Shown piece by piece: positions 2,829 to 27,474 of a stretch of 29,885 nt of DNA; position 1 is the stretch's first letter, and every line of letters begins with the position of its first letter. The notes under the pieces were generated by a model. It saw only the letters and a program-made list of their open reading frames with translations. It was not told where the DNA came from and did not search any database. The DNA comes from a virus: IMG/VR virus record IMGVR_UViG_3300001450_000138, positions 2,761 through 32,645 of that record; one strand, 5' to 3'. A program made the position numbers and the translations under genes.

Positions 2829-2861
2829 ATGGGTTGGCAAGATATATTAGGAAGGTGGTAA
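2829..2861 (+). CDS. Ten-residue ORF consisting only of the tag motif
   Basis: ATG 2829 to TAA 2861 encodes MGWQDILGRW. This is nearly identical to the start of the proteins at 7680 (MSWQDILK) and others, and then stops. AAGGCGGTG lies 5-13 nt upstream as a possible ribosome-binding site, and the next tagged gene starts at 2863. It may be a genuine tag-only peptide, the remnant of a deleted gene, or a leader. Its presence suggests that the tag can be gained or lost as a unit. Confidence 0.4.
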   Translation: MGWQDILGRW

Positions 2862-2862
2862 T

Positions 2863-4416
2863 ATGGATTGGAAAATTATTTTAAAAAATGATATGACTTA
2901 TGAACAAAGAAGAGAAGTAGACGAAGAAGTTACTAAAATAGTAAATAGCATGGAAGGTGTATCTTGGAGAATAGAAGATTTTGGTCATACTTTCGGCAAT
3001 GCAATTTTTACCAATGATGATGGCTATAAAATTTCTGGAAAAATACCCAATATAAATTCAGTCATACTACGAGCAGGGTTGGCTGGCCCATTCAAGAAAA
3101 GGATGGTAGAAGATATGTTTAAGCCATCCTTCCGTTCATTAGATTGGTTTTTAGAAGTCATTACACCGATAGATAATATTACACACAATAAGTTTGGGGA
3201 TTCCTTAACAGTTTATGGAACGAGTGGTAATGAGTATAATATTGAATTATTAAGTATTAAGAGTAGCGGGTGTTACGAGGTCACTACCGAAGAAGGTTAC
3301 CACATATGTATTGAAATAGTACAATCAAAACCCGTAGGTGATAATTTATTAGGATTGACATTGGGGTTACTAAATGACGAGGAATCGTCTTCGCAAATTG
3401 ATGGAATACAGGATTATATTAGCGGAACCGCATATGTAGAATGTTTCGTTTGTGGCATAGAAACTGAAGTAGAATTTAAAGATAACAGATATTTTACATG
3501 TAATAACTGCGAAGCAGATAATTACTTAGAAAATATATCCTTTGAGCCGGGGTTTGCTGCGACTACTAGTGTGCAACCGTTTGATGGACCACTAGGAACT
3601 ATAGATAATTTAAGAGATTATCATATTGCAGGAGAAATATTCTCCGATGGAAATGCCGTATTTACTTTGGCAAACCCCCAAAATTTTTATTTATCAGTTA
3701 TAGGCGACACCAATAGGGAATTAAATTATTTAGGGGAAGGCATATATATTAATGATAAAGAATTTTTTAGTGAGGATGGTTATGAGATAGACATAGAAAC
3801 GTTTATAACAGATGATTATGACATAATGAGACTAATCGTAGCAAACACAGACTATGATTATGATGATTTATATGAAATAATGGACTTTGAGAATCTAAGT
3901 GGAGATTTATGGTCCGACAATCAGGGTGAATATTTAGACGGTAATGGCAATTTTACCGATGAAATAAATGTAATGTTTGATATTAGTAACTTGTCCGAAG
4001 AAGAATTTATTAAGGCGGCTATAAAAGAATGGAATTTTGACGAAAACGAAGTATTAGACTTATTTGATTATGAACAAGACGGAGTTTTTTGGACCAAAGA
4101 TGAAAAAAAATACGAACTCGATAATGGTGAAATGGTTGAAATTAATGATGAAGGAATTACAAAGAACTTAAGTAGTAAAGCCGTTCTCCCTATTAATATG
4201 AAGTGGACAGACTACCTTAAGAAAACTTCCAATGAAGAGGCTGAGGATTGGGAATCTGCCTTAAAGAGTTTTATTTCCGATGGTAAAAAATTGGGAATAC
4301 CTTTGTCGGTAATGGAATTATTGAAGTTGGCTAAAGAGGCCACGACTTCTCAGAGCGAAGGTTTTGAAACTCTACACCGACCTACCTTCAGTGAGGAGGA
4401 AGAGGAAGATGTTTGA
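2863..4416 (+). CDS. Large tagged protein with a zinc ribbon, 517 aa
   Basis: The protein starts with the tag MDWKIILK. Most of it is unrecognised and Asp/Glu/Asn-rich, apparently beta-rich. C194-x2-C197 and C213-x2-C216 (CFVC...CNNC) form a clear zinc-ribbon site. Near the C-terminus a second tag-like segment (MKWTDYLKK, residues 446-454, at 4198) precedes about 70 residues ending in an acidic tail (SEEEEEDV), as if a second short tagged gene had been fused on. No good ribosome-binding site precedes the in-frame ATG at 4198, so an internal start is not favoured. The stop overlaps the next gene's start by 8 nt. Possibly a virion or scaffold-associated protein; no family known to me. Confidence 0.65.
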   Translation: MDWKIILKNDMTYEQRREVDEEVTKIVNSMEGVSWRIEDFGHTFGNAIFTNDDGYKISGKIPNINSVILRAGLAGPFKKRMVEDMFKPSFRSLDWFLEVITPIDNITHNKFGDSLTVYGTSGNEYNIELLSIKSSGCYEVTTEEGYHICIEIVQSKPVGDNLLGLTLGLLNDEESSSQIDGIQDYISGTAYVECFVCGIETEVEFKDNRYFTCNNCEADNYLENISFEPGFAATTSVQPFDGPLGTIDNLRDYHIAGEIFSDGNAVFTLANPQNFYLSVIGDTNRELNYLGEGIYINDKEFFSEDGYEIDIETFITDDYDIMRLIVANTDYDYDDLYEIMDFENLSGDLWSDNQGEYLDGNGNFTDEINVMFDISNLSEEEFIKAAIKEWNFDENEVLDLFDYEQDGVFWTKDEKKYELDNGEMVEINDEGITKNLSSKAVLPINMKWTDYLKKTSNEEAEDWESALKSFISDGKKLGIPLSVMELLKLAKEATTSQSEGFETLHRPTFSEEEEEDV

Positions 4417-5530
4417 GTGGGACCGAAATGGTGCTTTGGCATTACTTACACAATATAAGAATTTTTGGGGTGCAAGTAAAAACGCACAATTTGGCATTAC
4501 AGGAAACCCTGATGCTAATACAAAAAAGGTTAATGCTAAGTCAGTTTATCTTTCAGTAGAAAATCATGGCCGTGTAGGAATGTCAAGAAAAAATATAGAC
4601 TTTTCCGGTGGCGGTGCAATTTTAGAAAAACTTTTATCATTCTTAGAAAGAGAAACATTTCTTGAAGAAGACCTTCTCGATTTTGAAGACATGGAAAGAG
4701 ATTTAGATAGATTGGAAACAAGAGGAAATAGAAATCCCGCTAACATTACATTTAGAACAATGACCTCATTTAAGCCCCCAGCCAATGAAGATGAAGAACC
4801 TGAAATTGAAAGGGGTATAGTAGCCGGTCATTTTTTAACAGTTCCTTATTGGGAATACCGACAATGGAAATCAAAGAAACTTAACCAATCCTTTCCGAGT
4901 GACAGACCTAAACCTGAATGGTATGCGTTTTCTAAAGACGGCGGAGAACCACCGCAAAATAAAGCAAGACCTCCACTTTGGCAAGCAATTTTGGGTGAAA
5001 AAAATAGCCTAAGAAATTTGGTAGCCGATGTTAAGGAATTGGTCGAAAAGAGTATGGGGCCGGGACCAGAACCAATAAAAATTGATGTTAATGCTAATTT
5101 AGGTCCAAAGACTGGAGAAAGGTTAGCGGCTATTGCTGGATTAAATAAAGTGATACAAGAGGTTATGGCTGACGGAACTATTTACACAACGGGTAGAAGA
5201 TTTCCCGTAAAGAGTAGACTTAACAATGCAGTGAGAAGTAAAACATTTAACATTAGTTCTTCGGACTTAGCAATTCTTGTTGAAACTTGCACTGTGACTA
5301 TTGACGGTGAGCGTGTTGAGATTGACGAAGTGGTAAATTATGAAAAAATAAATAACATTACAATGAAATTTCCAAAGAGTAATAAAACTCTTAATAATGT
5401 CGTGAGGGCAGTAATGGGAGAAAAAATGGAAACATTCAAAGTTCCCGGTAGCACAGAAGGTGACGGTATTACTCTCAAACAAATTGATGCTATGGAAGCG
5501 TTTAGTAATTTAATGAAGGTGTTGAAATGA
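4409..5530 (+). CDS. Unidentified protein, 373 aa
   Basis: The ATG at 4409 lies inside the end of the preceding gene and follows GAGGAGGAAGAGG, a good ribosome-binding site; an in-frame start at 4364 would overlap more. The protein begins MFEWDRNGALALL, without a canonical tag. A segment PLWQAILGEK around residue 191 (TGG at 4979) resembles the tag in the middle of the chain, where a probably linker-like region (GPGPEP) and a second predicted domain follow. A proline-rich stretch at residues 175-190 would fit a domain boundary. No family is recognised. The stop overlaps the next ATG (ATGA). Confidence 0.6.
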   Translation: MFEWDRNGALALLTQYKNFWGASKNAQFGITGNPDANTKKVNAKSVYLSVENHGRVGMSRKNIDFSGGGAILEKLLSFLERETFLEEDLLDFEDMERDLDRLETRGNRNPANITFRTMTSFKPPANEDEEPEIERGIVAGHFLTVPYWEYRQWKSKKLNQSFPSDRPKPEWYAFSKDGGEPPQNKARPPLWQAILGEKNSLRNLVADVKELVEKSMGPGPEPIKIDVNANLGPKTGERLAAIAGLNKVIQEVMADGTIYTTGRRFPVKSRLNNAVRSKTFNISSSDLAILVETCTVTIDGERVEIDEVVNYEKINNITMKFPKSNKTLNNVVRAVMGEKMETFKVPGSTEGDGITLKQIDAMEAFSNLMKVLK

Positions 5531-6081
5531 ATAATAGTGTAGGTCCAAAAAATAACAGCGGTAATTGGTGGTCAATTATTAAAGCGTATGAAGATATATT
5601 GCCATATCATTTACCCTTATTAGAAAGAATAATTAACGACTCGGATGATGAAGAACTCGTTGAACTCATTGATGAGTTCATAGAAGTTTATAATGAAGAT
5701 GATTTTTACTTACATTTAACCCCCGGACTCGTAAGTGGTGGGGCGCAGGGTATTGGTATGACGGATGAAACTCCACTATCAAATCAAGAAATAGTAGAAT
5801 TAAATGAATTTACTGAGAGAACTGCGGCTGGAGAAACCCTTACAGAAGAAGAAAGAAAGCGACAGCAGGATTTATTGGATAACTCCGGTCAAGTTATGCA
5901 GACTAACGCTTCATTGGGGTCTGATTATATTATGTTCACCTTAACTGAATATCCCGGTTTTAAAAAATTAGCAGGTCCTGTTATGATAGTTTTTGGGGAT
6001 ACAACTACATATCAAATGCAAAACGGTAATTTATTTAAGCGTAAATTGAGGGAGGCTATTGATAATGCGAAAAGTTCGTAA
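5527..6081 (+). CDS. Unidentified protein with displaced tag-like segment, 184 aa
   Basis: The ATG overlaps the previous TGA. The first 12 residues are Asn/Gly-rich, then NWWSIIKAYEDIL (from residue 13) resembles the tag (W-x-x-I-I-K) shifted inward. The rest is acidic, with helical regions and a C-terminal beta-rich half (YIMFTLTEYPG, GPVMIVFGD). No catalytic motif or membrane segment is visible, and function is unknown. The gene overlaps the next one by 17 nt and carries that gene's GGGAGG ribosome-binding site. Confidence 0.6.
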   Translation: MNNSVGPKNNSGNWWSIIKAYEDILPYHLPLLERIINDSDDEELVELIDEFIEVYNEDDFYLHLTPGLVSGGAQGIGMTDETPLSNQEIVELNEFTERTAAGETLTEEERKRQQDLLDNSGQVMQTNASLGSDYIMFTLTEYPGFKKLAGPVMIVFGDTTTYQMQNGNLFKRKLREAIDNAKSS

Positions 6082-6727
6082 GTCCTGCCCTCTATGTAAT
6101 CATCCGGATAGAGATAATTTAGAAATAGAAATTCTTGAAGGTCGCATGGATGCGAATGCTCTTGATAGAGAAGAAGGTTGGAGAGCCGGAACTACAAGAA
6201 AACATATGCAGGAACATTTGAATGCGTATCACGATGATTCAAATGATAAATGTGCATTATGTGTAGCACCAAATAGAAAGGATTTAGAAGCCGCAATTGT
6301 AGATGGACATATGAAACCGAGTAAGGTTGCAGAATATTTAGAAGTCGGAGTCGATTCAATTAACCTACATATGAAGAAACATCTCAAACCTATCGTGCAA
6401 CAATCGGCGGCATTAGATGTAGCCCGTGTAGAATTGAACGAAATCGACCTACTTTCGCAAAATGTTTCAATGTTACAGGGTAAAATTCAACAATTTATCA
6501 TAGATAACGAAGATTTAGACTTCAAAACCGTGGATTCTTTGGTAAAACTTAGTAAAGAAATTCGTGAGTCGCTAAAGTATGCGCTGGAATTTAAGGGCAA
6601 ATTAGTACATAAAAGAGAGGAAACAGTGGTTATTCAACAAATTGAAGTTATACAAAAGGTTCTTATAGAAAGATACCCCGAAGTATGGACTGAGATACGC
6701 GATGATATAGCGGAGAGATTAGCATGA
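6065..6727 (+). CDS. DNA-binding protein with tandem CxxC-HxxxH fingers; candidate small terminase subunit
   Basis: The start is ATG 6065, nine bases after GGAGG. Two repeats of one module are visible: C8-x2-C11 ... H47-x3-H51, and C63-x2-C66 ... H102-x3-H106. Each has the shape 'C.LC..P.R..LE..I..G.........L.....I..HM..H', the layout of a zinc-stabilised helix-turn-helix found in phage and bacterial DNA-binding proteins. A helical segment follows, and the C-terminus (RYPEVWTEIRDDIAERL) resembles ends of small terminase subunits. No other small-subunit candidate is seen near terL, so this is my best guess for the DNA-recognition subunit, but terL is 10 kb away and the role is inferred. It has no tag and overlaps the next gene as ATGA. 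Confidence 0.6.
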   Translation: MRKVRKSCPLCNHPDRDNLEIEILEGRMDANALDREEGWRAGTTRKHMQEHLNAYHDDSNDKCALCVAPNRKDLEAAIVDGHMKPSKVAEYLEVGVDSINLHMKKHLKPIVQQSAALDVARVELNEIDLLSQNVSMLQGKIQQFIIDNEDLDFKTVDSLVKLSKEIRESLKYALEFKGKLVHKREETVVIQQIEVIQKVLIERYPEVWTEIRDDIAERLA

Positions 6728-7047
6728 GTTGGGAAAATATACTGAAAACTAAGATTAGCCATGCGGCGTATGAAAGAAAGATATTTCATGACATGAAGAA
6801 ATTTTCAGCATCTTTGGCTGATTATACGATTGAGCATGAATTAGAAAAAATAGTTAATGACGACTCGAAATTTAAAAACTTGATTGAAATTAAAGAAGTT
6901 ATATATGATGATTTAGTTGACCTGTATTTAGACAAAATGAATGAAGCGTTAGATGAGATGCTTGATGATACTAGCGGTGATATACAAGAAGTATTAAATA
7001 AAAATAAAAATGAAATATTAGATGATAGTTATGAATATTTTTCATAA
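6724..7047 (+). CDS. Tagged unidentified acidic protein, 107 aa
   Basis: The protein begins with the canonical tag MSWENILK, and the ATG overlaps the preceding TGA. After a short basic stretch the chain is acidic and helical, with long Asp/Glu-rich heptad-like runs (LDKMNEALDEMLDD) that suggest coiled coil. No catalytic residues are evident. It is a simple example of tag plus unrelated body. Function unknown; a virion-internal or scaffold-associated role is possible by association with the tag. Confidence 0.65.
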   Translation: MSWENILKTKISHAAYERKIFHDMKKFSASLADYTIEHELEKIVNDDSKFKNLIEIKEVIYDDLVDLYLDKMNEALDEMLDDTSGDIQEVLNKNKNEILDDSYEYFS

Positions 7048-7059
7048 GGAGAGATTACA

Positions 7060-7683
7060 ATGAGTTGGTTTGATATTTTAAAAATTTCTTTTAAGCCGGT
7101 AGACCGTGATAGACCTTCACCTAAAATTAAACTGACTGAAGGTTTAGTAGGGGAAGTAGGGAGTTATAATCCCGAAACAGGTGTAACTAATATTTCACCT
7201 AACCCTAATATAACACCCGAAGAAATAGCAGACACATTAGCACATGAATCAACCCATGAAGCCCAATTTGGAACAGAACCTATATTAAGAGAAATTATAA
7301 AAGGGGCGCAACACAGTATAATTTCATTAATTCTTGCTGTGAAAATGACAGCATTAGAAAATTTAACTACTGAAGTAATAAGTGAGTTATTAGAAGATGT
7401 AGAATTGGGAGTAGGTAATGCCGTAAAAATATACCTCGAACAAGAATTGTCAATAGAAGTACAAGCCTATTCATTAGAAAGAAATTTTGAAACGAGAGAA
7501 GACCGACAAAGATTTGCTCGTTTAATTTTAGATTCCTTTGAAGCAAGAATTTTAGGGGCGTTGAGGGCGGCTGAAGTAGAAGTTGAAAAAGAAAGAATAT
7601 TAATGAGTGCATTAATAACAAGTCTCAGACCTATATTTATAAGAATTTTTGAAACCTTTGTTAGAAGGGGGTCTATGAATTGA
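7060..7683 (+). CDS. Tagged HExxH metallopeptidase-like protein, 207 aa
   Basis: The start is ATG 7060 after AGGAGAG, with the tag MSWFDILK. Residues 62-66 are HESTH in the context IADTLAHESTHEAQFG, the Zn-binding HExxH motif of many metallopeptidases, placed in a predicted helix as expected. Before it, a short beta-like region (GEVGSYNPETGVTNIS) fits the usual strand-helix order. A third ligand is not certain; E or H residues about 20-75 positions later are candidates. The C-terminal half is helical. It could trim virion or host proteins; a structural relic of a peptidase fold is also possible. The stop overlaps the TTG start of the next gene. Confidence 0.6.
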   Translation: MSWFDILKISFKPVDRDRPSPKIKLTEGLVGEVGSYNPETGVTNISPNPNITPEEIADTLAHESTHEAQFGTEPILREIIKGAQHSIISLILAVKMTALENLTTEVISELLEDVELGVGNAVKIYLEQELSIEVQAYSLERNFETREDRQRFARLILDSFEARILGALRAAEVEVEKERILMSALITSLRPIFIRIFETFVRRGSMN

Positions 7684-8039
7684 GTTGGCAAGACATTTTA
7701 AAATTTGACGAGCCAACGGCCCTATTTGAAGACCTGCGTAGGGAAATTGTAGAATACTTTCCACCTCGTTATATTGGTGATGCCAATACACCACAAAGTA
7801 TTATAGGAATTATTTTTCTTTTAATAGATTACTTAGAAAGCCCTATGTATTCCGAACCGAGAGCACAGGGAGTATTGAGAGCATTGTTAAAGAAAATTGA
7901 TAAAAAGCAAGACCAATTTACAGAAGATGAGGGACATGATAGGGCTTTTATAGATGGTAATACTTTATTTTATGCAACTGTAGGTGGATTGATTGATAAA
8001 ATTAGTGAAGCATTAAAATTTAGGGAGGAAAACGCATGA
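7680..8039 (+). CDS. Tagged unidentified protein with TTG start, 119 aa
   Basis: The start is TTG 7680, overlapping the TGA of the previous gene, with AGAAGGGGG upstream. The tag MSWQDILK is encoded immediately after and so fixes the start. The body looks helical with acidic patches (DLRREIVEYFPP, LKKIDKKQDQFTED) and shows no catalytic motif. Its stop overlaps the next tagged gene (ATGA), making a coupled pair. Function unknown. Confidence 0.65.
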   Translation: MSWQDILKFDEPTALFEDLRREIVEYFPPRYIGDANTPQSIIGIIFLLIDYLESPMYSEPRAQGVLRALLKKIDKKQDQFTEDEGHDRAFIDGNTLFYATVGGLIDKISEALKFREENA

Positions 8040-8242
8040 GTTGGCAAACTATCCTAAAACTTGATTGGCGTGAAATGCTTGATTCTTATATAACCGAGGA
8101 CAGTTTATTTCATAACATTTATAAACACCTTACCGACAGTCTTGGTTATAACGCCCCGTCAAAAGACGAGGTTATTGACTATTTAGAAGAAAATTACGAA
8201 AGACATAAACTATGGACAAACTTATGGAGTGACAAAAAATGA
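8036..8242 (+). CDS. Tagged small protein, 68 aa
   Basis: The tag MSWQTILK opens the protein, and the GGGAGG ribosome-binding site lies inside the end of the previous gene. The remaining 60 residues contain a predicted helical pair and a 'NAPSKDEVIDYLEENYERH' segment that could be a small helix-turn-helix, though this is weak. A Trp-rich basic end (KLWTNLWSDKK) follows. The stop overlaps the next ATG. Function unknown. Confidence 0.6.
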   Translation: MSWQTILKLDWREMLDSYITEDSLFHNIYKHLTDSLGYNAPSKDEVIDYLEENYERHKLWTNLWSDKK

Positions 8243-8610
8243 ACTGGAAAAAAATACTAAAAGCACCCTTGCCTATGAACACAAGGGGAGATAGAGATGA
8301 ACAATATAGGCAAAAAGTTGTTGAATATGAAAAAAGCAAAATTGAACCCGCATTAACGGAATATTATTCTAAAAATACAGCCAACGAAAACGAACCGTTT
8401 AGAATATTTTCCGGAAAGGGAACCGCCGGATTATACAATTTTAATGACATGGGGATGGCGTATAGAATAGCCCCAAGCGAAATAAGTATGATGGGTGGGA
8501 ATATTCTATTTATCTTAGGTGTTATAAAGGATTTATATGAAAAAGAGGGATATAAAGTGGTTTTGGATGATTCCCCTTCCGGGCGCGAAATGATTACAGT
8601 ATCACAGTGA
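8239..8610 (+). CDS. Tagged unidentified protein, 123 aa
   Basis: The protein starts MNWKKILK, a tag variant with Asn in place of Ser. A basic, helical N-terminal part is followed by a Gly-rich region (FSGKGTAGLYNFNDMGMAY) and a helix-strand end (FILGVIKDLYEKEGYKVVL). No known catalytic pattern or transmembrane helix of convincing length. It is coupled to the preceding gene by ATGA and ends six bases before the next ATG. Function unknown. Confidence 0.6.
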   Translation: MNWKKILKAPLPMNTRGDRDEQYRQKVVEYEKSKIEPALTEYYSKNTANENEPFRIFSGKGTAGLYNFNDMGMAYRIAPSEISMMGGNILFILGVIKDLYEKEGYKVVLDDSPSGREMITVSQ

Positions 8611-8615
8611 TTACT

Positions 8616-8840
8616 ATGACATGGACAGACATTATAAAAGACGAAGACCTTAGAGCCGCTCAAAAGAGAGGCATTGAAAGAGGTGTTAATAAAACAGGCT
8701 TTTGCCCAGAATGTAAGCAAACAGTAGTAATGTTTAATCAATGTCCTAAATCATTACCTCGCCCTCCTATTAAACCCGGATGCCCTATGAAGGATAGAAG
8801 AACTTCACGACCAAGAGGATTCCCAACAAGATTTGATTAG
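8616..8840 (+). CDS. Tagged small Cys-containing basic protein, 74 aa
   Basis: I choose ATG 8616 because it places the tag (MTWTDIIK) at the N-terminus; a GTG nine bases earlier is in frame. FCPECKQ gives a CxxC pair, and two more cysteines follow (NQCPKS, GCPMKD), so one Zn site is plausible. The C-terminus is Pro/Arg-rich and basic (RRTSRPRGFPTRFD), suggesting nucleic-acid contact. Typical of the small proteins in this array: a short tag plus a compact basic body. Function unknown. Confidence 0.6.
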   Translation: MTWTDIIKDEDLRAAQKRGIERGVNKTGFCPECKQTVVMFNQCPKSLPRPPIKPGCPMKDRRTSRPRGFPTRFD

Positions 8841-8851
8841 GGGGAATTAAT

Positions 8852-9019
8852 TTGTGGTGGGATATTATACAGAAAAAAAAATCTAAAACTAAAAAAGACG
8901 CTTGTTATCGCAAGGTAAGAAGTCGTTATAAGAAATGGCCCTCCGCCTACGCTTCTGGTGCTTTAGTTCAATGTCGTAAAAAGGGTGCGGCCAACTGGGG
9001 CAATTCAAAAAAGAAGTGA
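8852..9019 (+). CDS. Tagged small basic protein of the 'SAYASGALV' type, 55 aa
   Basis: TTG 8852 follows TAGGGGGAA at good distance and is the only start giving the tag form MWWDIIQK. The body contains KKDACYRKVRSRYKKWPSAY, then ASGALVQCRKKGAANWG, a motif I recall from small proteins and domains of marine phages and large viruses (A-C-Y-.-K-V-.-.-R-Y...W-P-S-A-Y-A-S-G-A-L-V). It has two Cys and many Lys/Arg, so nucleic-acid binding is likely. It was too short and unusually started for routine calling, yet it is well supported. The next gene starts four bases after its stop. Confidence 0.75.
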   Translation: MWWDIIQKKKSKTKKDACYRKVRSRYKKWPSAYASGALVQCRKKGAANWGNSKKK

Positions 9020-9023
9020 TATA

Positions 9024-9863
9024 ATGTGGCGATACATACTCAAGGAAGAATCTAAAGGGTTCAATAATCTTTCTCCGAGTAAGCAAAAGCAACTTAACTC
9101 CGAACCTTCATTTGATGTTAGTATTCCCGAAATGTCTTTTCCCGATAATGAAGACGAATTACCAAGTGTTCTAAAAATTATGCAAGGGCAAGACTTAGAT
9201 AAAAAAACTATCAATGACTTGGATAAAAATAACCATAAGATGATTCTTGACATTGTTGGGGAAAAAATATCCGATTGGAAAAATTTTCTTGAAGATTTAG
9301 ACATATACTCCTTTCGCCTAAAAAAGAAATACGGTAGAAAGAGACCATATCAAATTTCGGATAAAATTAAATCGTTAACAGATACAGACGACACACCTTC
9401 TTTTCCAAGCGGTCACGCTATTGATGCACATGCGCTGGCTAAGGTTCTCGGTGAAAAATATCCCGATAAGAAAAAAGAACTTAATACTATGGCAGATTCA
9501 ATTTCTCTCTCTCGCGTTCAAATGGGTAGTCATTATCCAAGTGATATAGAAGCAGGTAAAAAGGTAGGGCTTATGCTTGCCGATGCGTATTTAGATATTT
9601 CTAAATCTTGGGAAAATATTTTACAAAGTGGCGATAACTTTAAAAGAGAAAAGTCCGAAGGCTTACATGGGTGGTTTTCTCGAAGAGGTGGAAAGGAAGG
9701 TAAAGGTAAGAAAACACAGGGAGGATGGATTGACTGTTCTTCATGTGGAAAGAAAAACGGACCTAAGCCTTGTGGTAGAAAAGATGCTTCAAAGGGTAGA
9801 AAAAGAAGATGCCGACCAACTTGTTCCGCATGTAAAACTTATAAAAGGAGGAAAGGTAAATGA
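9024..9863 (+). CDS. Tagged PAP2 phosphatase fused to a basic Cys-rich module, 279 aa
   Basis: The start is ATG 9024 (MWRYILKEES), giving the tag; an earlier in-frame start at 8985 would overlap the previous gene. PAP2 superfamily motifs are complete: K100-x6-R107-P108, P128-S129-G130-H131, and S163-R164-x5-H170-x3-D174, with His131 and His170 as expected catalytic residues. There are no membrane helices, so this is a soluble acid-phosphatase/haloperoxidase-like type. A second tag-like segment (SWENILQ, 195-201) marks the boundary to a C-terminal basic domain with GWFSRRGGK, GGWIDCSSCG, PCGRKD and CRPTCSAC, a module I recall from marine and giant viruses (possibly DUF5872; name unverified). 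Likely a phosphate-ester hydrolase carried with a DNA-binding tail. The substrate is unknown. Confidence 0.8.
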   Translation: MWRYILKEESKGFNNLSPSKQKQLNSEPSFDVSIPEMSFPDNEDELPSVLKIMQGQDLDKKTINDLDKNNHKMILDIVGEKISDWKNFLEDLDIYSFRLKKKYGRKRPYQISDKIKSLTDTDDTPSFPSGHAIDAHALAKVLGEKYPDKKKELNTMADSISLSRVQMGSHYPSDIEAGKKVGLMLADAYLDISKSWENILQSGDNFKREKSEGLHGWFSRRGGKEGKGKKTQGGWIDCSSCGKKNGPKPCGRKDASKGRKRRCRPTCSACKTYKRRKGK

Positions 9864-10342
9864 GTTGGAAAGATATAATTAAATACAAACCTATTAAGGT
9901 AACAGGTCCATATAAGAAAGGAGACTATAAAGGTAAGGATTCTGAAAAAAATTCAACCTTTACTGAAATGTTTTACGAAAGTCTAATGACTTCAAGAACA
10001 GGTGAAACGCGTGTTGAAAGAAATCAAAGATTAGAGGCTTTAAACCAGTTATTTCCAAATGGGTCTTTATTAATTGCTGGTGGTAAATATGAAACTTGGG
10101 AAGAGTTTAATCGGGCATTGGATAAGGGGGAGATAGATAGAAATATAGATATTCCAATGGAAGCACTTTTGAGGCTTCGCTCGGACAGAAGCAAAATAAA
10201 AGAGACTGACCCTACTTCTTTAGAAAGTAGGCTTAAGAGAAAAAGAGCAGAATTAGAAAATGCTGATGAAAACCTTTCTCAAAGACAAAGAAGAGAAATT
10301 CAAAGAGAAATAAACCGCTTAGAACAACTATTAAAAAGGTGA
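9860..10342 (+). CDS. Tagged unidentified basic protein, 160 aa
   Basis: The tag is MSWKDIIK, and the ATG overlaps the preceding TGA, with AGGAGG upstream. After a Lys/Gly-rich linker (GPYKKGDYKGKDSEKN) comes a helical middle and then a long charged helix (residues about 110-160) rich in Arg, Glu and Gln with heptad-like spacing, probably coiled coil. No enzymatic motif is visible. The end of the gene carries the start signals of the next tagged gene. Function unknown; the coiled coil would suit assembly with partner proteins. Confidence 0.6.
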   Translation: MSWKDIIKYKPIKVTGPYKKGDYKGKDSEKNSTFTEMFYESLMTSRTGETRVERNQRLEALNQLFPNGSLLIAGGKYETWEEFNRALDKGEIDRNIDIPMEALLRLRSDRSKIKETDPTSLESRLKRKRAELENADENLSQRQRREIQREINRLEQLLKR

Positions 10343-10347
10343 GAAAA

Positions 10348-10764
10348 ATGAGTTGGAGAAATAACCTAAAGAAAAAACAAACCAAGTTTGGTTTTCAAAG
10401 AACCTTAGAGGGTGAAAGTATTGCTAACCTTGACCCAATAGACGAAGCCGTAAGAGAAAAGGAAAAGGCTGACAAATCTCTATCCGAAAGAAAAAAGCGT
10501 GAAGCAGAAAGATTAGCAGTAGCAAATCGTAAGGGGCAGGAAACCCTTGAAAAGGAAATTACAAGTACAGATTTAAGAGTTGACCGATTTGAAGAATTAA
10601 TAGAACAAATTCAAATAATGCTTGATTTAATAAATGAAAGAGAAAATAACCCTGACAATAATTATAGAGTAAAAATTGCTGAGGCATATAATACCCTATT
10701 AGGTTCATTCCGAGAAGTAAGAGAAGATATGTTTGAGTTTAAAACAGAACTTGATTTGGAATAA
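10348..10764 (+). CDS. Tagged coiled-coil protein, 138 aa
   Basis: ATG 10348 follows AAAAAGGTGAGAAAA and gives the degenerate tag MSWRNNLKKK, where Ile is replaced by Asn. Most of the chain is strongly charged helix (about residues 35-75 and 90-138) with coiled-coil character. No cysteine cluster or catalytic motif. It is the last gene of the tagged array before the promoter at 10766. Function unknown. Confidence 0.6.
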   Translation: MSWRNNLKKKQTKFGFQRTLEGESIANLDPIDEAVREKEKADKSLSERKKREAERLAVANRKGQETLEKEITSTDLRVDRFEELIEQIQIMLDLINERENNPDNNYRVKIAEAYNTLLGSFREVREDMFEFKTELDLE

Positions 10765-15349: not shown

Positions 15350-16128
15350 AGAGTATGAAGATAAAAGATGGAACAGTAATTACTTTTCCTGATAGAATAT
15401 ACTCCGACGATGAACTTGTAGAATTATGGGCCGCAGTTGGTTGGACTCATGTTCCGAGAAGAGAGCGTGAAACAATTGCTGAAATTAGTCAAATAGAACC
15501 CGATGGATATTATATTGCTATGGATGGTGAATATATCGTCGCTCACTGTGGTTGGGTTGATAGGGGAGATATTTTTCAAACCTGTGGAACGAAGGTAAGT
15601 ATAGGATATGACTTTAGAAGTTATAAAGGTGAGGGTATATCCAATGTTCTTCGCCAAAAAAGACTTAAGGTGATAGGTAGTAATCCTGCTATGTCGTTTA
15701 TTAATAATTCAACCGAGGGTTGGTTAGCAAGTCTAATGAAAGAAGGTTGGGAAATAGGAAGTGTGGAAGATTTACCGGAACAGTATCAAGAACTGGCTTT
15801 ACAATTGTCGGACTCCTATACTATCCTTATATTAAATATTAAACCGAAGGCTATGAAAAAGGCTTGGGAAATTTTAAAATCTCGCATGTCTTCAAGGGCA
15901 AAAAAACTTACTGATGAAATTATGGCCGATGGTCGAGAAAGAAGTGTTAAAGAAATAATAACTTTAATGTATAGATTAATTAGGGGTGATTCTAACATCA
16001 CGGGAAGACAAACAATTCCTACGAGAACCGAACTTAAAACTTATTTGTCAAAAAATAGAGAATATGTAAGTAGAAGAGTCAGTAGTGGTGGTAAAAAAAT
16101 TACATATTATGAAAAGGTGATACCATGA
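15346..16128 (+). CDS. GNAT-like acyltransferase joined by a tag to a C-terminal helical/winged-helix-like domain, 260 aa
   Basis: Residues about 15-165 look like a GNAT fold. A strand pair (GYYIAMDGEYIVAHCGW) is followed by FRSYKGEGISNVLRQKRL (90-107), matching the acetyl-CoA loop pattern R/Q-x-x-G-x-G/A then a helix, and by NNSTEGWLASLMKEGWE, like the final 'N..A..Ly.k.GF' segment. At residues 173-179 the chain reads AWEILKS, the tag without an initiator, exactly at the switch to a basic C-terminal domain. That part (SVKEIITLMYRL ... TRTELKTYLSKNREYVSRR, then KKITYYEKV) resembles a winged helix. The protein substrate is unknown. Coupled at both ends by ATGA overlaps. Confidence 0.55.
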   Translation: MKSMKIKDGTVITFPDRIYSDDELVELWAAVGWTHVPRRERETIAEISQIEPDGYYIAMDGEYIVAHCGWVDRGDIFQTCGTKVSIGYDFRSYKGEGISNVLRQKRLKVIGSNPAMSFINNSTEGWLASLMKEGWEIGSVEDLPEQYQELALQLSDSYTILILNIKPKAMKKAWEILKSRMSSRAKKLTDEIMADGRERSVKEIITLMYRLIRGDSNITGRQTIPTRTELKTYLSKNREYVSRRVSSGGKKITYYEKVIP

Positions 16129-16838
16129 ACGGATTTTGGGAAATACTAAAGCGTGTGGATATTCGCAATGCTGAGGAATACGAGAGAGCGTCTTTGGATG
16201 ATAGAAGAAAATGGCATCATAATCAGGGGCAGGGTTATTACCGAAGATTGCAGGTATTACAACGAACTTATAATGTCACTAATGAAGAATCTCCGATGTA
16301 TAAAGAAATGGTAGAATTACAGGAATTGTTTAGGTTTCATTTGAGGCAAGAGCAACGAATAAAATTTGATAGAATGCGACAGAATTTCTATTCCTTAGAA
16401 TTAGAAACTGATAGAAAAAGGGTAAAAGGTCAAATGACTCCACAAGGCAATCCTATGCCATACACAGAACTCTCACAAGAAGTTTATGAAACATTATCGG
16501 ATAGTAAAAAATACAAATATCATCAGGGTATGCGCCGTAAAACAGAAGGAGAAGAAAAAAAATTTCATGGTAGAATGATTGGTCGAATTGAAGATAAAAA
16601 TCAACTTCCTACCTTTGCTTCCTCAAAACATGGTGGAAAATCTGAGTATGGAATAATAACTACAAGGGAAGAATATGAAAATATGTCGAATGAAGATAAG
16701 AGAAAATATCATAATATGGTGGGGGCTAGAGCAAGAAGAAAAGGTGATATAGATTTAGGAAAATTTCATGTTAAAATGTCAAATAGATTAAGAAGAAATA
16801 GTAGCCTACCAAATTATTTTTCAATGGAGGATGAATAA
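16125..16838 (+). CDS. Tagged protein with three internal repeats, 237 aa
   Basis: It begins MNGFWEILKRVD, a tag with two extra residues before the Trp. Three related segments follow: about 15-41 (EEYERASLDDRRKWHHNQG), 116-156 (EVYETLSDSKKYKYHQGM ... KKFHGRMIGRI) and 180-224 (EEYENMSNEDKRKYHNMVG ... GKFHVKMSNRLRR). The shared pattern is EEYE.(L/M)S..DKRKYH..(M/Q)G followed by a second FH..M..R helix. Each unit is a basic, His-rich helical pair, suggesting nucleic-acid or scaffold binding. It directly precedes terL and shares a base with it (TAATG), so a role in packaging is tempting but unproven. Confidence 0.65.
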   Translation: MNGFWEILKRVDIRNAEEYERASLDDRRKWHHNQGQGYYRRLQVLQRTYNVTNEESPMYKEMVELQELFRFHLRQEQRIKFDRMRQNFYSLELETDRKRVKGQMTPQGNPMPYTELSQEVYETLSDSKKYKYHQGMRRKTEGEEKKFHGRMIGRIEDKNQLPTFASSKHGGKSEYGIITTREEYENMSNEDKRKYHNMVGARARRKGDIDLGKFHVKMSNRLRRNSSLPNYFSMEDE

Positions 16839-18250
16839 TGGACTTACTTACAGAAATGGATATGAAAGCCTCCGATGGTAATTTTGAATATTTCTTTACA
16901 AAAATTCTCGGAATGGAAATGGCAGACTTTCACCGTGATTGGCTACAATCAGTTCACGACACTCAAAGAACTGTAATCATTTGTTCACGAGACCACGGAA
17001 AGTCTGTATTCTTTCACTCTTGGTGTATCTACCAATTAATTTTTCAGCCTCCACCATATCAAATGATTTACATTTCTTCAAACCAAAAACAGACAATGGT
17101 TCACATGAAAGACATTGACCGAATGTTCACAAACATTCCTGCATTAAGAAAATTCAAACCTAAAGCCGGTTGGGCTGTCGGTTCAATGAGATTAACAAAT
17201 GGAAATGAAATACTTGAGCGTTCCGTTGGTTCACAGATTCGTGGACTTCACCCTCAAGAGATTATTATTGACGACCCTATGAAGGAGTTTTCTGTTGCCG
17301 CCATACAGCGAGTCACAGATTGGTTTTGGGGAGACATGATTCCTACTCTTCACCACACCGCTACTTTACGAATGGTCGGCACACCTTTCACATACACTGA
17401 TATATTTGCAGCATTAGAGGAAAACCCTGAATATGATGTGCAACGCTATCCAGCGATAAATCAAACGGGTGATGCTCTTTGGCCTTCTCGTTGGGATATT
17501 GATTCTTTAGAAAAGAGAAGAAGAGAAATAGGTTCTTCTAAGTTCACAAGAGAATATCTTTGCATACCAATTTCATCCAATACAATGTTATTCGGAAAAG
17601 AATTTATCGACAAGTCTAAAGACCGAACAAGTAAGTTATCGTATCATGGTAATACTGAGGCATTCAAATACTACATTGGCTACGACCCCTCACTTTCAGC
17701 AGATGGCGACTACACAGTAATGATGGTTATTGAAGTAGATGAAGATATGAATAAAAAGGTGGTTTGGATGGTAAGAGAAAAAAATATGGACTTCCGTTCT
17801 CACATTACCCGCATTACAGACCTTTGCGAGAGATATAAACCTGAAGTTGTAATGATTGAAACTAACACATTCGCTAAGTCTTTCGCTATGGAACTGCGTG
17901 ACATATCCGACTTCCCCGTAAAAGAATTTACAATGCACCGTAAGAAGAAGGAAGAAATTATTCTTAACTTGCAGATGAATTTAGAGAATAATAAAATTAT
18001 ACTACCCTATGCAGACGAAAAGGCGAAAGCAGTTTCGGATGCAATTATACAGGAACTCGAAGCATTCGGTATTAGCAGTACAGGAAAAATTGAGGGCTTA
18101 GGCGCACACGATGATATTGTTATTGCACTTGCATTAGCCAATCACGCCACAAAGTCTTTTAATGATGCTTTCATAGACATAGATAGTAGCGGGTTTTTCG
18201 GAACGCCGAAACAGGATTTTGGAGGTGGCATATATGGAATTAATATGTAA
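16838..18250 (+). CDS. terL: Terminase large subunit (DNA-packaging ATPase/nuclease), 470 aa
   Basis: TerL translocates viral DNA into the prohead and cuts it. ATPase domain: Walker A variant CSRDHGKS (49-56), Walker B EIIIDDP (141-147), and coupling motif RMVGTPF (178-184). RNase H-like nuclease domain: GYDPSLSADGDYT (first Asp), VVMIETN (middle acidic), and GAHDDIVIALALA (last Asp pair). Length is typical for the family, and all key residues are present, so it should be active. It starts at ATG 16838, overlapping the previous stop. By eye, Phe TTC and His CAC codons are commoner than in neighbouring genes. A homing endonuclease gene overlaps its last 17 nt without breaking it. Confidence 0.95.
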   Translation: MDLLTEMDMKASDGNFEYFFTKILGMEMADFHRDWLQSVHDTQRTVIICSRDHGKSVFFHSWCIYQLIFQPPPYQMIYISSNQKQTMVHMKDIDRMFTNIPALRKFKPKAGWAVGSMRLTNGNEILERSVGSQIRGLHPQEIIIDDPMKEFSVAAIQRVTDWFWGDMIPTLHHTATLRMVGTPFTYTDIFAALEENPEYDVQRYPAINQTGDALWPSRWDIDSLEKRRREIGSSKFTREYLCIPISSNTMLFGKEFIDKSKDRTSKLSYHGNTEAFKYYIGYDPSLSADGDYTVMMVIEVDEDMNKKVVWMVREKNMDFRSHITRITDLCERYKPEVVMIETNTFAKSFAMELRDISDFPVKEFTMHRKKKEEIILNLQMNLENNKIILPYADEKAKAVSDAIIQELEAFGISSTGKIEGLGAHDDIVIALALANHATKSFNDAFIDIDSSGFFGTPKQDFGGGIYGINM

Positions 18251-19609: not shown

Positions 19610-21271
19610 ATGGGACTAAGAGATAGGTTTAGAACATTAATACGAAGGAGAACCCCCATACCTACTGAAAAGGAAGTTTATAATTTAGGTATTCAAGAGC
19701 GTAGATACCCCCAACATTACGCAGGAAGTTATCTTTACGATACGGCTAAAAATTCAACAGTTGTTAGAACCTGTTTAGTTCAACTTAAGAATGAAGTTTT
19801 CCGACGAGGATATGAATGGAAGAAGGCGTTTGATAAGAAATGTAATTCATGCGGCTACGAACACCAAAAAGATGTAGATGAATGTATGAATTGTAAATCT
19901 ACTGATTTAAGAACTCCTAATTACAGTCAAAAGGTCTACGCAGAAAATTTCTTTAAGAACCATGTAAATGATTCACACCAGTTATTTATTGATATTCTAA
20001 AGGAACTTGAAACTGACCTCAATGTTATGGATGATGCGTTCCTAATTTTAGTTAAGGATTATTTCTTAGAAGAAAATGGTGAAATAGCCATGTCTAAAAT
20101 CAATGAAATTTATAGAGGCGACCCAACTACAATGTTTATTGAAGTTGATGAAGATGGTGATAGAGGACACCATAGATATACTTGTGTTACACATAGAGAT
20201 TTCATTTCCGAAGAAAGATATGAAAAGTGTGGTGTGTGTGGAAGTAATCTACACCCTATCGAATTTACAAATAAAACTGCTCAAGCAGAACAACATTATA
20301 TTACAGGTGAAGTGGTTCATTTTAGTAAATATTCACCTACAAGATTATACGGTCACCCTCCAGTAATTACACTGTTTAATTATATATTTACCTTACAGGC
20401 TATGGAGTCTTATATTAGCACTTCATATCAAAAAATGAGAACACCGAAGGGTATTCTTGCTGTGCAGACTAATAACATGGAGTCGCTGGTAAAGTATTGG
20501 AAGGGTGTTAAGGAAAAGTTAGAACAAGACCCACACTACATTCCTATTATGGGTATTGAATCCGAAGGTGGTTCTCGTGGTTCTGTTGAATGGATTCCCT
20601 TTATGAACAGTCTAAAAGAAATGGATTATACTGCTGTAAAGGAAGACCTAAGAACAAGAATTTCGGCTTTCTATGGTGTAAGTAATATCTTCATGGCAGA
20701 CAATACGGCTTCCGGTGGACTTAACTCCGAGGGTATGCAAATTCTCGTTACAAATCGTGCTGTGGAAATGGCTCAAAGTGTCTATAACAAATATCTATTC
20801 CCATTTATGATGGATGAATTTGGTATAACAGATTGGAGAGTTCAACTTTTACGCTCGGAAGAAGAAGATGAAATGGCTGTATTACGCCGAAGAGAAATGG
20901 AAGTTACACTCGCTATTCAAATGAAAAATCTTGGTTTCGATGTTGATATGAATGAAGATGGAGACTTTATCTTTAAGAAATTCCCAGAAGAGGGGCTTAC
21001 AAAGGTTGATGTTGATAAAAAAGAAGAGAAGCCGATAGAAACTGATAAATTTGCTGGAACTAATATAGACCAATCACAATTAGGACAACTACAAGAACAA
21101 GCATTAATGAGTGGACAAAGTAAGGGTCAAGTAGCGGGTGAAGTAGCAGATAAGGCTGACTATACCCCAAAGGCAAGAATGCCTTCACCTCCCGATAAAA
21201 GATTTAGTGGACTTCCCGGTGACGCTGGAAATAAAAATGTAGATAAAAGAACAGAGAGGCGAATAAGGTGA
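19610..21271 (+). CDS. Portal protein with inserted zinc-binding modules, 553 aa
   Basis: The portal forms the dodecameric ring through which DNA enters and leaves the capsid. Support comes from the position after terL, the length, and recognisable portal features. These include an N-terminal basic helix (MGLRDRFRTLIRRR), TVVRTCLVQLKNEVFRRGYEW (early 'v.r.i..i...v...g' helix), GEVVHFSKYSPTRLYGHPPV (the clip/stem entry), and DLRTRISAFYGVSNIFM...SGGLNSEGMQ (the C-terminal 'fgvp..ll....n.s' region). Two four-Cys-type clusters are inserted: C78/C81/C92/C95 (CNSC...CMNC), and later YTCVTH...KCGVCG. Such zinc inserts are consistent with archaeal tailed viruses. The C-terminal 70 residues are Gln/Gly/Pro-rich and probably disordered. 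It ends in a GTGA overlap with the next gene. Confidence 0.85.
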   Translation: MGLRDRFRTLIRRRTPIPTEKEVYNLGIQERRYPQHYAGSYLYDTAKNSTVVRTCLVQLKNEVFRRGYEWKKAFDKKCNSCGYEHQKDVDECMNCKSTDLRTPNYSQKVYAENFFKNHVNDSHQLFIDILKELETDLNVMDDAFLILVKDYFLEENGEIAMSKINEIYRGDPTTMFIEVDEDGDRGHHRYTCVTHRDFISEERYEKCGVCGSNLHPIEFTNKTAQAEQHYITGEVVHFSKYSPTRLYGHPPVITLFNYIFTLQAMESYISTSYQKMRTPKGILAVQTNNMESLVKYWKGVKEKLEQDPHYIPIMGIESEGGSRGSVEWIPFMNSLKEMDYTAVKEDLRTRISAFYGVSNIFMADNTASGGLNSEGMQILVTNRAVEMAQSVYNKYLFPFMMDEFGITDWRVQLLRSEEEDEMAVLRRREMEVTLAIQMKNLGFDVDMNEDGDFIFKKFPEEGLTKVDVDKKEEKPIETDKFAGTNIDQSQLGQLQEQALMSGQSKGQVAGEVADKADYTPKARMPSPPDKRFSGLPGDAGNKNVDKRTERRIR

Positions 21272-24374: not shown

Positions 24375-26810
24375 ATGTGGGAAACAATTCTAAAGAGAAA
24401 TATTAAGCCTAATGCTACTCTTAATGAAGTTGAGATTAAGATTAGACAGGCATTAAAAGTTCCTGCTTTAGAAGATGCTATTTCTGTAAATGAAGATAAA
24501 GCACAACGACTTGTTAATACATCTAAAAGAAAAGAAAGACAAGAATTGCTACAAAAAATTAAACAGGATAAACAAACTTTACAGTCGTATAAGAAATCAA
24601 ATCCTTTCTTAGCCTTTGGAAATAAAAAAGACATTCAAATTAATGATGCTGGAGAAATTATTGATGATGGTTATGGTAAAGGAGAATTTTACCCCATATA
24701 TGTTATAGAATCAGGAAAAGGTAAAACAAGACCGGGAATGGGTTCAGATAGCGGTAAAAAATTAATTAACCCAGAACTACCTCTTACAATAGAAGCGGCG
24801 GCTTTACATTATAAAGAAAATATTGTTGACTATGATAAAGCAAATGTTAATAGGGTTATGCCGAAAGATAAACCTTATGATGCACCTTATGGTCGAAAGG
24901 TAGAATCTAAGGATATTGAACCTTCTAAAGATGCTAAAGATTTAGAAGAAGCAAAAGAAAGATTAAGTTATTATGAAAATATAATTGAAGATAGAAGAAC
25001 TTCTAATGATGAAGCGATGATTTTAAGACTTCGTAGTGAGATAAAGGAATTAGAATCACAAATGATTGAAGATGCTGAGGAAAATACAAGGGTGGAATTT
25101 GAAGCGGCACAACAAAATTTGACTACAAAAACAACCCTACCACAAATAAGAACAATCCTACGACCAATTACAAATGCTGATTTCAATGACTTTATTATCT
25201 CATTAGATGAATTCGTGGACAGTGGTTCTTCACCTATTATTGATAAATACCGAGAAAAAAATCCTGATAAATTCACAGATATTATGGCTTTAGTAGAATC
25301 TTCTTCTTCTTCATTAGACAGTTCTAATCCTGCTGATAGATATATAGACAAACTTACTATGATGGTTAATAAGAAGTCAATTGACTTTAATAGGGATGAA
25401 AATTACAATAGAGTTTCATTACAGGTTTCCGATACTAAAAGATACAGTAGAGAAAACAATAGATTAATTCTTCCTACCAATCAAGACCTTTCGGGAAAGT
25501 TTAACGATATTTCTACATGGTTGGCTAAACATTACGAACCATTACCAGAAGTTGGAGATAAAGATTTATTTATTAAAAAACTTATTAACGCTATTAATAA
25601 TGTTGTAGACGAAAAGGGTGGTAATAATTCAATTGCCTATGCAATACAACGAATGTTAAATGACAATTTAGCAAGTCAATTTTCAAGACAGGTTGTAGTG
25701 ACAGGTAGATATTTAGACTCAAACACAGAACAACAAAAGTTTAGACAATTTATTAACACCAAGTCAAGAAAGGATATGAGGTTATTAGAAAATATAGCCA
25801 CCTTTTTACACCGAGGAAATCAAATGTCGGGTTTTCTTACTCAAAGTCAAATAGACGATGCCAACGAAATGCTTCAAGAACAGGTGGGTAGTAAGCAGTT
25901 TGGTAGATATTTCCTCACAGAAATCCCTTCAGCACAATTACAAAGAAAACCTAAAAGTAATTTAGCGGAAAGATTTGGTGCTAAGGGTAGAAAGCAAACT
26001 GGTAAAGGTGAATTAGTAGTTCCAGAAAAATTTGCAGGAGCATCAGGAAAACCTAAAGAAGGTCCAGTAAATAGACCGAAACAAAGAACACCAACTTTAT
26101 ATCCTAAAGATACTGCTCGCAATAAAAAGAAATTAAATTATCCTGAAGATTATGAACCTATGACTGGAAGTTATTCCGACGAACTTACAGAAAACCAAAA
26201 AACAGTTTTAGCAGATATTAGACAATCGTATAAGGTTAACAGTCCTCCTTCAAAAAAGGAAATAGAAGAAAGATTACAAAATTTGAGAGAACTACAAAGT
26301 CAAAATGAACCGGTATCGGATGAAGAAAGAGACAAATTAAACCAAGAATTTGCTGAATCATTAGGTCCGATTGCTATGAAGCGTGATGGTATAATATCAT
26401 ACGAACCTTATTCAGCAAGACGCAGAAAGTTTTCAATAGGGGGTAAGAATCTCGAAGAAGTAATCGCTCAAATTAAGTTAAACCTTGATAATGGTTCTTC
26501 ACCTCTTAGCAGTTTTTATGAAACGCAGGTGAAGAAGGCAGACCTATCAGCACTTTCTACTAAGGAAAGACGCAAGGTTAAAACAATGCTTCAAAACGCC
26601 CATCCAACAGAATACTTCGGTGAAGACTACCTCCGTTTGGGCAAAGTTATAAATATAATTGACGGTTTAGCGGAGGATGAAGAGGCCGAACTCTTGGAGA
26701 AGTTGGGAGTCAAAAATCTACAAATGGTTAAGACCGCCGCATCACTAAGAAAGAAATATGAAAATCTATACAAAAAATTATACGATATGGTATATGATGA
26801 GGAGGAATAA
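24375..26810 (+). CDS. Very large tagged protein, 811 aa
   Basis: The protein starts MWETILKRN, a clear tag (W-x-x-I-L-K) with the residue before Trp missing. It is the largest tagged protein and lies far from the main array, between portal and prohead protease. After an N-terminal helical part there is a domain around residues 95-180 (GEFYPIYVIESGKGKTRPGM ... APYGRKVES). A strong coiled coil follows at about 185-245, then a mixed middle and a Lys/Pro-rich linker (PVNRPKQRTPTLYPKDTARN, about 565-590). The last 200 residues are helical and charged. No enzyme motif is seen. Length and coiled coils are compatible with a scaffold or an internal virion protein. Confidence 0.6.
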   Translation: MWETILKRNIKPNATLNEVEIKIRQALKVPALEDAISVNEDKAQRLVNTSKRKERQELLQKIKQDKQTLQSYKKSNPFLAFGNKKDIQINDAGEIIDDGYGKGEFYPIYVIESGKGKTRPGMGSDSGKKLINPELPLTIEAAALHYKENIVDYDKANVNRVMPKDKPYDAPYGRKVESKDIEPSKDAKDLEEAKERLSYYENIIEDRRTSNDEAMILRLRSEIKELESQMIEDAEENTRVEFEAAQQNLTTKTTLPQIRTILRPITNADFNDFIISLDEFVDSGSSPIIDKYREKNPDKFTDIMALVESSSSSLDSSNPADRYIDKLTMMVNKKSIDFNRDENYNRVSLQVSDTKRYSRENNRLILPTNQDLSGKFNDISTWLAKHYEPLPEVGDKDLFIKKLINAINNVVDEKGGNNSIAYAIQRMLNDNLASQFSRQVVVTGRYLDSNTEQQKFRQFINTKSRKDMRLLENIATFLHRGNQMSGFLTQSQIDDANEMLQEQVGSKQFGRYFLTEIPSAQLQRKPKSNLAERFGAKGRKQTGKGELVVPEKFAGASGKPKEGPVNRPKQRTPTLYPKDTARNKKKLNYPEDYEPMTGSYSDELTENQKTVLADIRQSYKVNSPPSKKEIEERLQNLRELQSQNEPVSDEERDKLNQEFAESLGPIAMKRDGIISYEPYSARRRKFSIGGKNLEEVIAQIKLNLDNGSSPLSSFYETQVKKADLSALSTKERRKVKTMLQNAHPTEYFGEDYLRLGKVINIIDGLAEDEEAELLEKLGVKNLQMVKTAASLRKKYENLYKKLYDMVYDEEE

Positions 26811-26813: not shown

Positions 26814-27050
26814 ATGGAAGAAGAAACAACAATTGAAATTTTAGAAATATTGAAGGCCCTATCCGATAAGGTTAAGGATTTAGAGAAAAAATTAGAAGAC
26901 TCGGACACAGCAATTATGAAGGCTGGATTTGTACGAAGTCCGAGACCAAGTGCAAAAACTCAAGCAGGGATGCCCAGCGGTGATGTAATTTCAAAAATGG
27001 ATTGGAATGATTTAGATTCACTTGTGAAAAATTTGGAGGGAACAATATGA
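26814..27050 (+). CDS. Small coiled-coil protein, 78 aa
   Basis: ATG 26814 lies after GAGGAGGAAT, a strong ribosome-binding site within the end of the previous gene. Residues 1-35 are a heptad-patterned acidic helix (IEILEILKALSDKVKDLEKK), then a basic Pro/Ser linker (GFVRSPRPSAKTQAGMPSG) and a second short helix (KMDWNDLDSLVKNLEG). It overlaps the next gene as ATGA. The layout suggests a small scaffold or chaperone-like assembly factor. No specific family. Confidence 0.6.
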   Translation: MEEETTIEILEILKALSDKVKDLEKKLEDSDTAIMKAGFVRSPRPSAKTQAGMPSGDVISKMDWNDLDSLVKNLEGTI

Positions 27051-27469
27051 GCAAAGAAAAAATGATAGCAGATGAAGCAGACATACAAGGTGTAGATGTT
27101 TTAACACAACTGACCGAACTTACAGTATTACTTACAAACGCATTAGGCTACGAACCTGCCGATAAACAAAAGGATGAGAAGGCTGGAAAGCAAGTTGATG
27201 TTGAAAGATTAGCCGCTAAGACCATCACCAAACAAATTAATTTAATTCGCAGGGAATACGAAACCAAACTTATGCCGGAGAATATGACCTATAAGGCGGA
27301 ACCCGACGAAGAAGAAATACGAATTGAGTCGGATGGAAACGCGGAAGATTCACAAGACAAAGATGTTGAGGCCGCATTGGAAACAGCACTCGGAAAACTT
27401 AAGCGTCTTAAGCATACACTAACAATTAACGAGGATGCCGCTTTAACCCCAAGTGATGAAATGGTGTGA
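27047..27469 (+). CDS. Unidentified acidic protein, 140 aa
   Basis: The ATG overlaps the previous TGA. The N-terminal 85 residues are helical (VDVLTQLTELTVLLTNALGY, then RLAAKTITKQINLIRREYE), followed by an acidic linker (EPDEEEIRIESDGNAEDSQD) and a short helical end. No motifs. It lies directly before the ligase gene. Possibly a small structural or scaffold component by position; unrecognised. Confidence 0.6.
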   Translation: MSKEKMIADEADIQGVDVLTQLTELTVLLTNALGYEPADKQKDEKAGKQVDVERLAAKTITKQINLIRREYETKLMPENMTYKAEPDEEEIRIESDGNAEDSQDKDVEAALETALGKLKRLKHTLTINEDAALTPSDEMV

Positions 27470-27474
27470 GGGTA

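Follow-up and report, generated by a model that had tools for sequence, protein, structure and literature searches.

Encapsulins take up unrelated cargo by means of short cargo-loading peptides that send it into an HK97-fold shell. The head of phage T4 contains a diverse set of internal proteins united only by their capsid-targeting sequence (CTS) (PMC3012670), of which the ten N-terminal residues suffice for packaging; the residues that matter most for targeting are 4 and 7, and residues 8 and 10 serve processing (PMC9026906). The internal proteins IPII and IPIII begin with MKTYQEFIAE and IPI with MKTFKEFTS. CTS-like N-termini of T4-like cyanophages are borne by enzymes and basic proteins, among them the cytidylyltransferase T4-GC190, which was detected in S-SM1 virions by proteomics (PMC3037559) and whose N-terminal peptide in cyanophages is MKKFSAFL[NK]EA. 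Here we have analyzed a stretch of viral DNA of 29,885 nucleotides (hereafter the window; positions 2,761 to 32,645 of IMG/VR record IMGVR_UViG_3300001450_000138), in which a first-pass annotation had noticed an eight-residue N-terminal tag, M-x-W-x-x-I-[LI]-K, on a dozen otherwise unrelated proteins. On comparison with related genomes the tag is a selected, portable, late-strand and clade-specific peptide placed on unrelated protein bodies with the spacing of the T4 CTS. Sequence and analogy together suggest, with a fair degree of likelihood, that it recruits late proteins into the assembling prohead and loads them into the virion in the manner of the T4 CTS.

The window is part of a 32.6-kb record fragment, whereas its relatives measure 90-96 kb. 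Eighty IMG/VR loci were retrieved through TerL relatedness and the tags were counted among 714 late-strand proteins of nine genomes (the window record, G001-G006, G010 and G011); genes were called with a simple script based on open reading frames (ORFs) and Shine-Dalgarno sequences, and the resulting counts are approximate. With the strict definition W-x-x-[ILV][ILV]-[KR] 161 of the 714 proteins were tagged versus 0.36 expected from the internal rate or 0.41 from shuffles, so the shared tag is real and more extensive than had been noted; a looser definition gave 165. Each genome contains 9 to 27 late proteins that carry it on otherwise unrelated bodies. The exact DNA pattern used for contig scans, DTGNNNTGGNNNNNNATHYTNAAR, occurred 2-14 times per genome in 16 whole relatives and was confined to one strand in all 16, and the reversed control pattern had no match in the same 16 genomes. 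In 919 kb of loci with the window type of TerL there were 100 exact matches, all on the strand of TerL; the tag pattern had none in 861 kb of loci with HVTV-1-like TerL, and sequence of HVTV-1, cyanophages and T4 totalling 392 kb had none either. A strict pattern combining the Shine-Dalgarno sequence with the tag gave 15 isolated, scattered matches among bacterial and archaeal genomes totalling 257 Gb versus at least 120 stretches in viral contigs, by which a host-derived signal was ruled out. Forty of 50 tag-bearing contigs encoded a TerL match, in 39 of these 40 at an identity of at least 56%, and single-match contigs without window-type TerL (G017, G022, G024, G034, G043 and G055) were set aside as likely chance matches. 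By these comparisons the tag is specific for one virus clade. It co-occurs with the window type of TerL, and neither of two findings that the first-pass annotation had named as refuting its reading was made: the tag is kept by homologues and is practically missing from unrelated genomes. A literature search for the tag strings found no match, while an earlier mention is possible.

The distribution of the tag among the genes is equally sharp. It was absent from all opposite-strand (replication-strand) genes of at least 80 amino acids (0/266 and 0/170) and from all 209 homologues of TerL (85; window gene 16838..18250, + strand, as for all window genes below), portal (79; 19610..21271) and the ATP-dependent DNA ligase of the head module (45; 27466..29571), and other core genes were likewise untagged. 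The earlier claim of an untagged core thus stands for TerL, portal and ligase; the capsid protease, also named in it, lies outside the window and, in a relative, just past the ligase. Tagged genes cluster beside TerL and the head genes and are sparse in the tail module. When the first 14 residues had been cut off, the bodies formed about 95 clusters, 69 of them single, and are indeed unrelated; the known domains among 137 tagged proteins were PAP2 (7), DUF5754 (6) and a putative metallopeptidase family (2). The full tag was kept in 70 of 103 homologues of window genes, down to 24% body identity and through the range of 24-33%, and many of the remaining ones hold a damaged tag (MSWQDGLK, MTWKDITK, MAWRMIAD). 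Defence or anti-defence was considered as a function of these proteins and dropped, PADLOC having given weak single matches only.

The alignment of 137 members has the consensus MxWxxILK and nothing beyond it, with an invariant Trp and with Lys in at least 90% of members. All 165 tags contain Trp, as required by the search definition; W+1 is E, K, F or Q, W+2 is D or N, W+3 is always I, L or V, and the consensus I, L and K are found in 136, 139 and 157 tags, respectively. Except in tags whose Trp directly follows the initiator Met, the residue in front of Trp is usually S, N or T, which are typical helix N-caps, and no conserved residue was found downstream of K8 in either the alignment or the 165 tags. 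Ser2 favours AGT (0.81 vs 0.28), and most of the starts listed by the annotation are preceded by a purine-rich, Shine-Dalgarno-like stretch. The codons for I, L and K match the genome average and therefore, as had been proposed, selection acts on the peptide. The annotation had also placed Trp, Ile and Leu on one face of a helix. In the AlphaFold2 model of the 207-aa HExxH protein encoded at 7060..7683 (MSWFDILK) residues 3-10 are helical and detached from the body, with pLDDT below 50, as would be expected of an exposed docking segment; the body is modelled with low confidence and has a weak likeness to minigluzincins.

Although mostly N-terminal, as first described, the tag is also found at C-termini, inside proteins and behind an N-terminal extension, in copies that had been overlooked. 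The family represented by 4409..5530 is conserved in all nine genomes, mostly without an N-terminal tag. The window member has a weak C-terminal tag, FSNLMK, and its homologues have C-terminal motifs such as KSWTQILRKC, PISWEGILRNES, TDWRTIMKVNA and NDWRDILKRELIC; in 11 of 27 homologues a clear W-x-x-hydrophobic motif lies at most five residues from the end. In four genomes of a second clade every member of the family (assigned by position, length and alignment) ends with a tag-like motif. C-terminal tagging overall amounted to 2 matches in the first nine genomes versus 1.4 expected, so that C-terminal use is mainly a property of this family. The 279-aa PAP2 phosphatase (9024..9863, MWRYILK) is fused to a Cys-rich basic module, which G011 encodes as a gene of its own that begins with MTWQDILRKKGDNFKREK. 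The internal SWENILQ (9606-9626), where phosphatase and module meet, is a relic tag marking the fusion. Further internal copies occur at fusion junctions. In the 517-aa protein encoded at 2863..4416, which starts with MDWKIILK, a second tag-like KWTDYLK (4201-4221) is the fusion point of a separate tagged-type gene (MTWEKYLK...). The 184-aa protein encoded at 5527..6081 has the tag NWWSIIK at residues 13-19 (5563-5583), behind a 12-residue extension. Such placements suggest a portable docking helix that can serve at the front or the back of a protein. The C-terminal and internal copies rule out an effect of the start codon as well as every mechanism dependent on a free N-terminus.

The viruses that carry the tag could be compared with described groups. 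Magrovirales, in the ICTV descriptions, have genomes of 90-110 kb with morphogenesis and replication modules in opposite directions (PMC10768690, PMC12999244), a gene set including PolB, clamp loader, ATP-dependent ligase and ERCC4-type nuclease (PMC10160649), and major capsid protein (MCP) and replication genes related to those of haloarchaeal tailed viruses; Poseidoniales are given as hosts in the descriptions of magroviruses (PMC10768690, PMC12999244, PMC10160649). The relatives of the window likewise consist of two opposed modules. Their opposite strand encodes PolB, an ERCC4 nuclease, an RFC-like clamp loader and a second ligase (all in G005), and their late strand an S78 protease and an SU10-type MCP. 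The MCP matches archaeal tailed viruses only, HVTV-1 and HCTV first, and the best matches of PolB are haloviruses. In genome size and opposed modules, replication genes, and halovirus-related MCP and PolB, the virus looks like one of magrovirus type.

The parallel with T4, already drawn by the annotation, proved to be close. In both systems about ten N-terminal residues are common to different, variable, non-core proteins, and an S/T N-cap is followed by an aromatic residue and by hydrophobic residues at +3/+4 (T-Y-Q-E-F-I in T4, S-W-E-D-I-L here). The two T4 positions that matter for targeting, Y4 and F7, correspond to W and W+3, the likeness being one of spacing only. The present tag differs in that W replaces Y/F, +5 is occupied by Lys and a conserved Glu cleavage site is missing, in its 9-27 carriers per genome as compared with about three in T4, in its additional C-terminal and internal use, and in belonging to what appears to be an archaeal virus with another type of MCP (SU10/HVTV-like). 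We have not classed it as a T4 CTS, since it lacks a downstream protease site and the two groups of viruses are not closely related. The same spacing is found in T4-GC190 (MKKFSAFLNEA) and P-SSM4_158 (MLSFKAYLAE) of the T4-like cyanophages, which however have the T4 motif rather than W-x-x-I-L-K and few carriers per genome. Cyanophage gp114, whose gene lies between terminase and neck genes and next to that of T4-GC190, shares the basic module of window gene 8852. The encapsulin parallel is weaker: the peptides differ in sequence and in their usual C-terminal position, and no direct link was found. The shell gene of these viruses is a viral MCP of SU10/HVTV type. SPN3US-like giant phages are similar in that many head-packaged ejection proteins are delivered with the genome, but the available portion of their description mentions no shared W-x-x-I-L-K tag.

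In the mechanism that we propose, the tag would form a helix in which an S, T or N cap is followed by Trp, by Ile (+3) and Leu (+4) on the same face as Trp, and then by Lys (+5). This helix would dock fast-changing late proteins on one conserved partner in the prohead, possibly scaffold, core or a protease extension; candidates are the S78 protease, by way of its extension, and, at 26814 and 27047 of the window, small conserved proteins. The cargo would include metallopeptidase-like proteins, the PAP2 phosphatase, basic Cys-rich modules resembling DNA-binding ones and many proteins of no recognizable type, which would be packaged and then probably enter the host together with the genome. We infer prohead loading because the tag has the layout of the T4 CTS, because T4-GC190 is a virion protein and because a cargo module is shared with gp114; partner, packaging and injection are steps drawn by analogy. 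Several points weigh on the other side. The consensus ends at K8, so there is no conserved Glu or protease site past the tag as in T4, and we know of no T4 parallel for C-terminal tags. That T4-GC119/gp114 is a virion protein is taken from a database note. In G001 and G002 a small number of tagged genes are found outside the TerL cluster, nearer the tail end, and a search for the receptor in the conserved 4409 family (Pfam, PHROGs, fold search) gave nothing useful. Finally, the viruses are uncultured and known here from sequence alone.

A selected short peptide on late proteins, at either end, is also what would be seen if the tag docked unpackaged proteins on some other viral or host hub, such as the virus factory, a late-transcription or lysis complex, or the host division or membrane machinery. 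A PAP2 phosphatase and a metallopeptidase could well act late in the infected cell, and from sequence data this possibility is inseparable from packaging. We nevertheless consider it unlikely, since spacing and position equal those of a proven capsid-targeting peptide, the tag genes lie in or beside the head module and some cargo modules are common to head-region proteins of cyanophages. A place on the outside of the particle or on the tail, where the proteins would serve for decoration or adhesion, would suit late genes and a rapid turnover of the kind that fits host-recognition proteins, but surface proteins are seldom enzymes or small basic Cys-rich modules and few tags are found in the tail module, which makes it a very doubtful explanation.

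It is highly improbable that the tag is an amphipathic N-terminal helix anchored in the plane of the host membrane, even though Trp, Ile and Leu would share one helix face and lipids are the substrates of PAP2 enzymes: the residues at its polar positions, mainly acidic or amide (E, K or Q at W+1, D or N at W+2), are ill-suited to anionic membranes, eight residues are short, internal copies exist, and amphipathicity would not call for so strict a choice of W, I, L and K at set distances. As to an effect on translation start, a DNA-level effect such as copying, or chance, the AGT preference at Ser2 and the likeness in DNA of neighbouring leaders would point that way. The background codons for I, L and K, the untagged core head genes, the C-terminal and internal copies and the count of 161 versus 0.4 refute it, and its probability is negligible.

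If loading into the prohead is indeed the function of the tag, candidate packaged or injected proteins of an abundant oceanic group of archaeal viruses could be flagged from sequence alone, and about one in five of their late genes, most of which lack annotation, would become a testable payload list. Short capsid-targeting peptides would then have arisen in archaeal viruses as well, and a new loading tag would be on offer. A wider proposal, which we regard as possible and advance tentatively, is that of a general delivery system convergent with the T4 CTS, in which one helix at either end would load up to about 27 interchangeable payloads for injection into marine archaea and cassettes would be gained and lost in tandem behind the tag. 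In the tandem arrays of tagged genes at L087:3832-9600 (G005) and L099:5444-9092 (G010) the tag and a linker of 20-30 residues are common (NIQISSQRTSSKDYV.PDE; QI..GRQKLRTDD.PLP) and the bodies differ; DNA identity at the gene start exceeds that just after it, a pattern suggestive of payload swapping behind a copied front end.

All tag starts listed by the first-pass annotation are present in the window, most of them as variants of M-x-W-x-x-[IL]-[LI]-K, but the one at 2829 belongs to a 10-codon ORF, MGWQDILGRW-stop (2829..2861), rather than to a gene. At the matching position relative G001 has several tagged genes in tandem; the leader of the ORF is 91-95% identical to those of relatives (first tagged gene of the G001 array), and in the ORF a tag start is fused with the ILGRW-stop end of a neighbour, found in G001. 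By this comparison it seems to be the stump of a tagged gene left by a deletion. The remaining members of the cluster encode tagged proteins of 107 aa (6724..7047, MSWENILK; no homologue among the fetched loci), 119 aa (7680..8039, MSWQDILK), 68 aa (8036..8242, MSWQTILK), 123 aa (8239..8610, MNWKKILK), 74 aa with CxxC-type motifs (8616..8840, MTWTDIIK), 55 aa forming the basic module KDACYRKVRSRYKKWPSAYASGALVQCRKKG (8852..9019, MWWDIIQK) and 160 aa (9860..10342, MSWKDIIK). Two of the listed starts are variants: the 138-aa protein at 10348..10764 has a degenerate tag, MSWRNNLK, with MSWQDGLK and MIWQDGLR in homologues, and the 237-aa protein at 16125..16838 starts with MNGFWEILK, with W at residue 5, its homologues having MDWQNVLK and MGWFNILK. 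An 811-aa tagged protein (24375..26810, MWETILK) is encoded in the head module between portal and ligase. The genes at 7680 and 8852 start with TTG. Several tagged genes, including 8852-9019 and its homologues, start with TTG or GTG, and the tag would often escape automatic annotation as a result.

There are two ATP-dependent ligases, one in the replication module (L086:4711-6219, - strand) and the larger one of the head module (window 27466-29571), which sits between portal and capsid protease and might be packaged for repair or circularisation of the injected genome. Contig IMGVR_UViG_3300021958_000021 (L149, 184,733 bp) contains a pair of TerL genes separated by about 90 kb, and its tags form two groups; it probably consists of two joined virus genomes or is a concatemer of related ones. 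Small basic Cys/Trp modules (KDACYxKV...SAYASGALVxCR; SLRxWFxRKG...GWVDC) are common to magroviruses, cyanophages, and Flavobacterium and Roseobacter phages (window 8852-9019, L310:18747-20522, L338:7770-8240, L339:7860-8290); Roseobacter phage CRP-901 has two such module genes without annotation. In Flavobacterium phage immuto a gene beside the shared modules (L338:8261-8725) begins with MKKQILSEQFRRMQKLAGIITESQFNE, which may be another lineage-specific tag, and the present findings suggest scanning other marine phage lineages for shared tags of their own.

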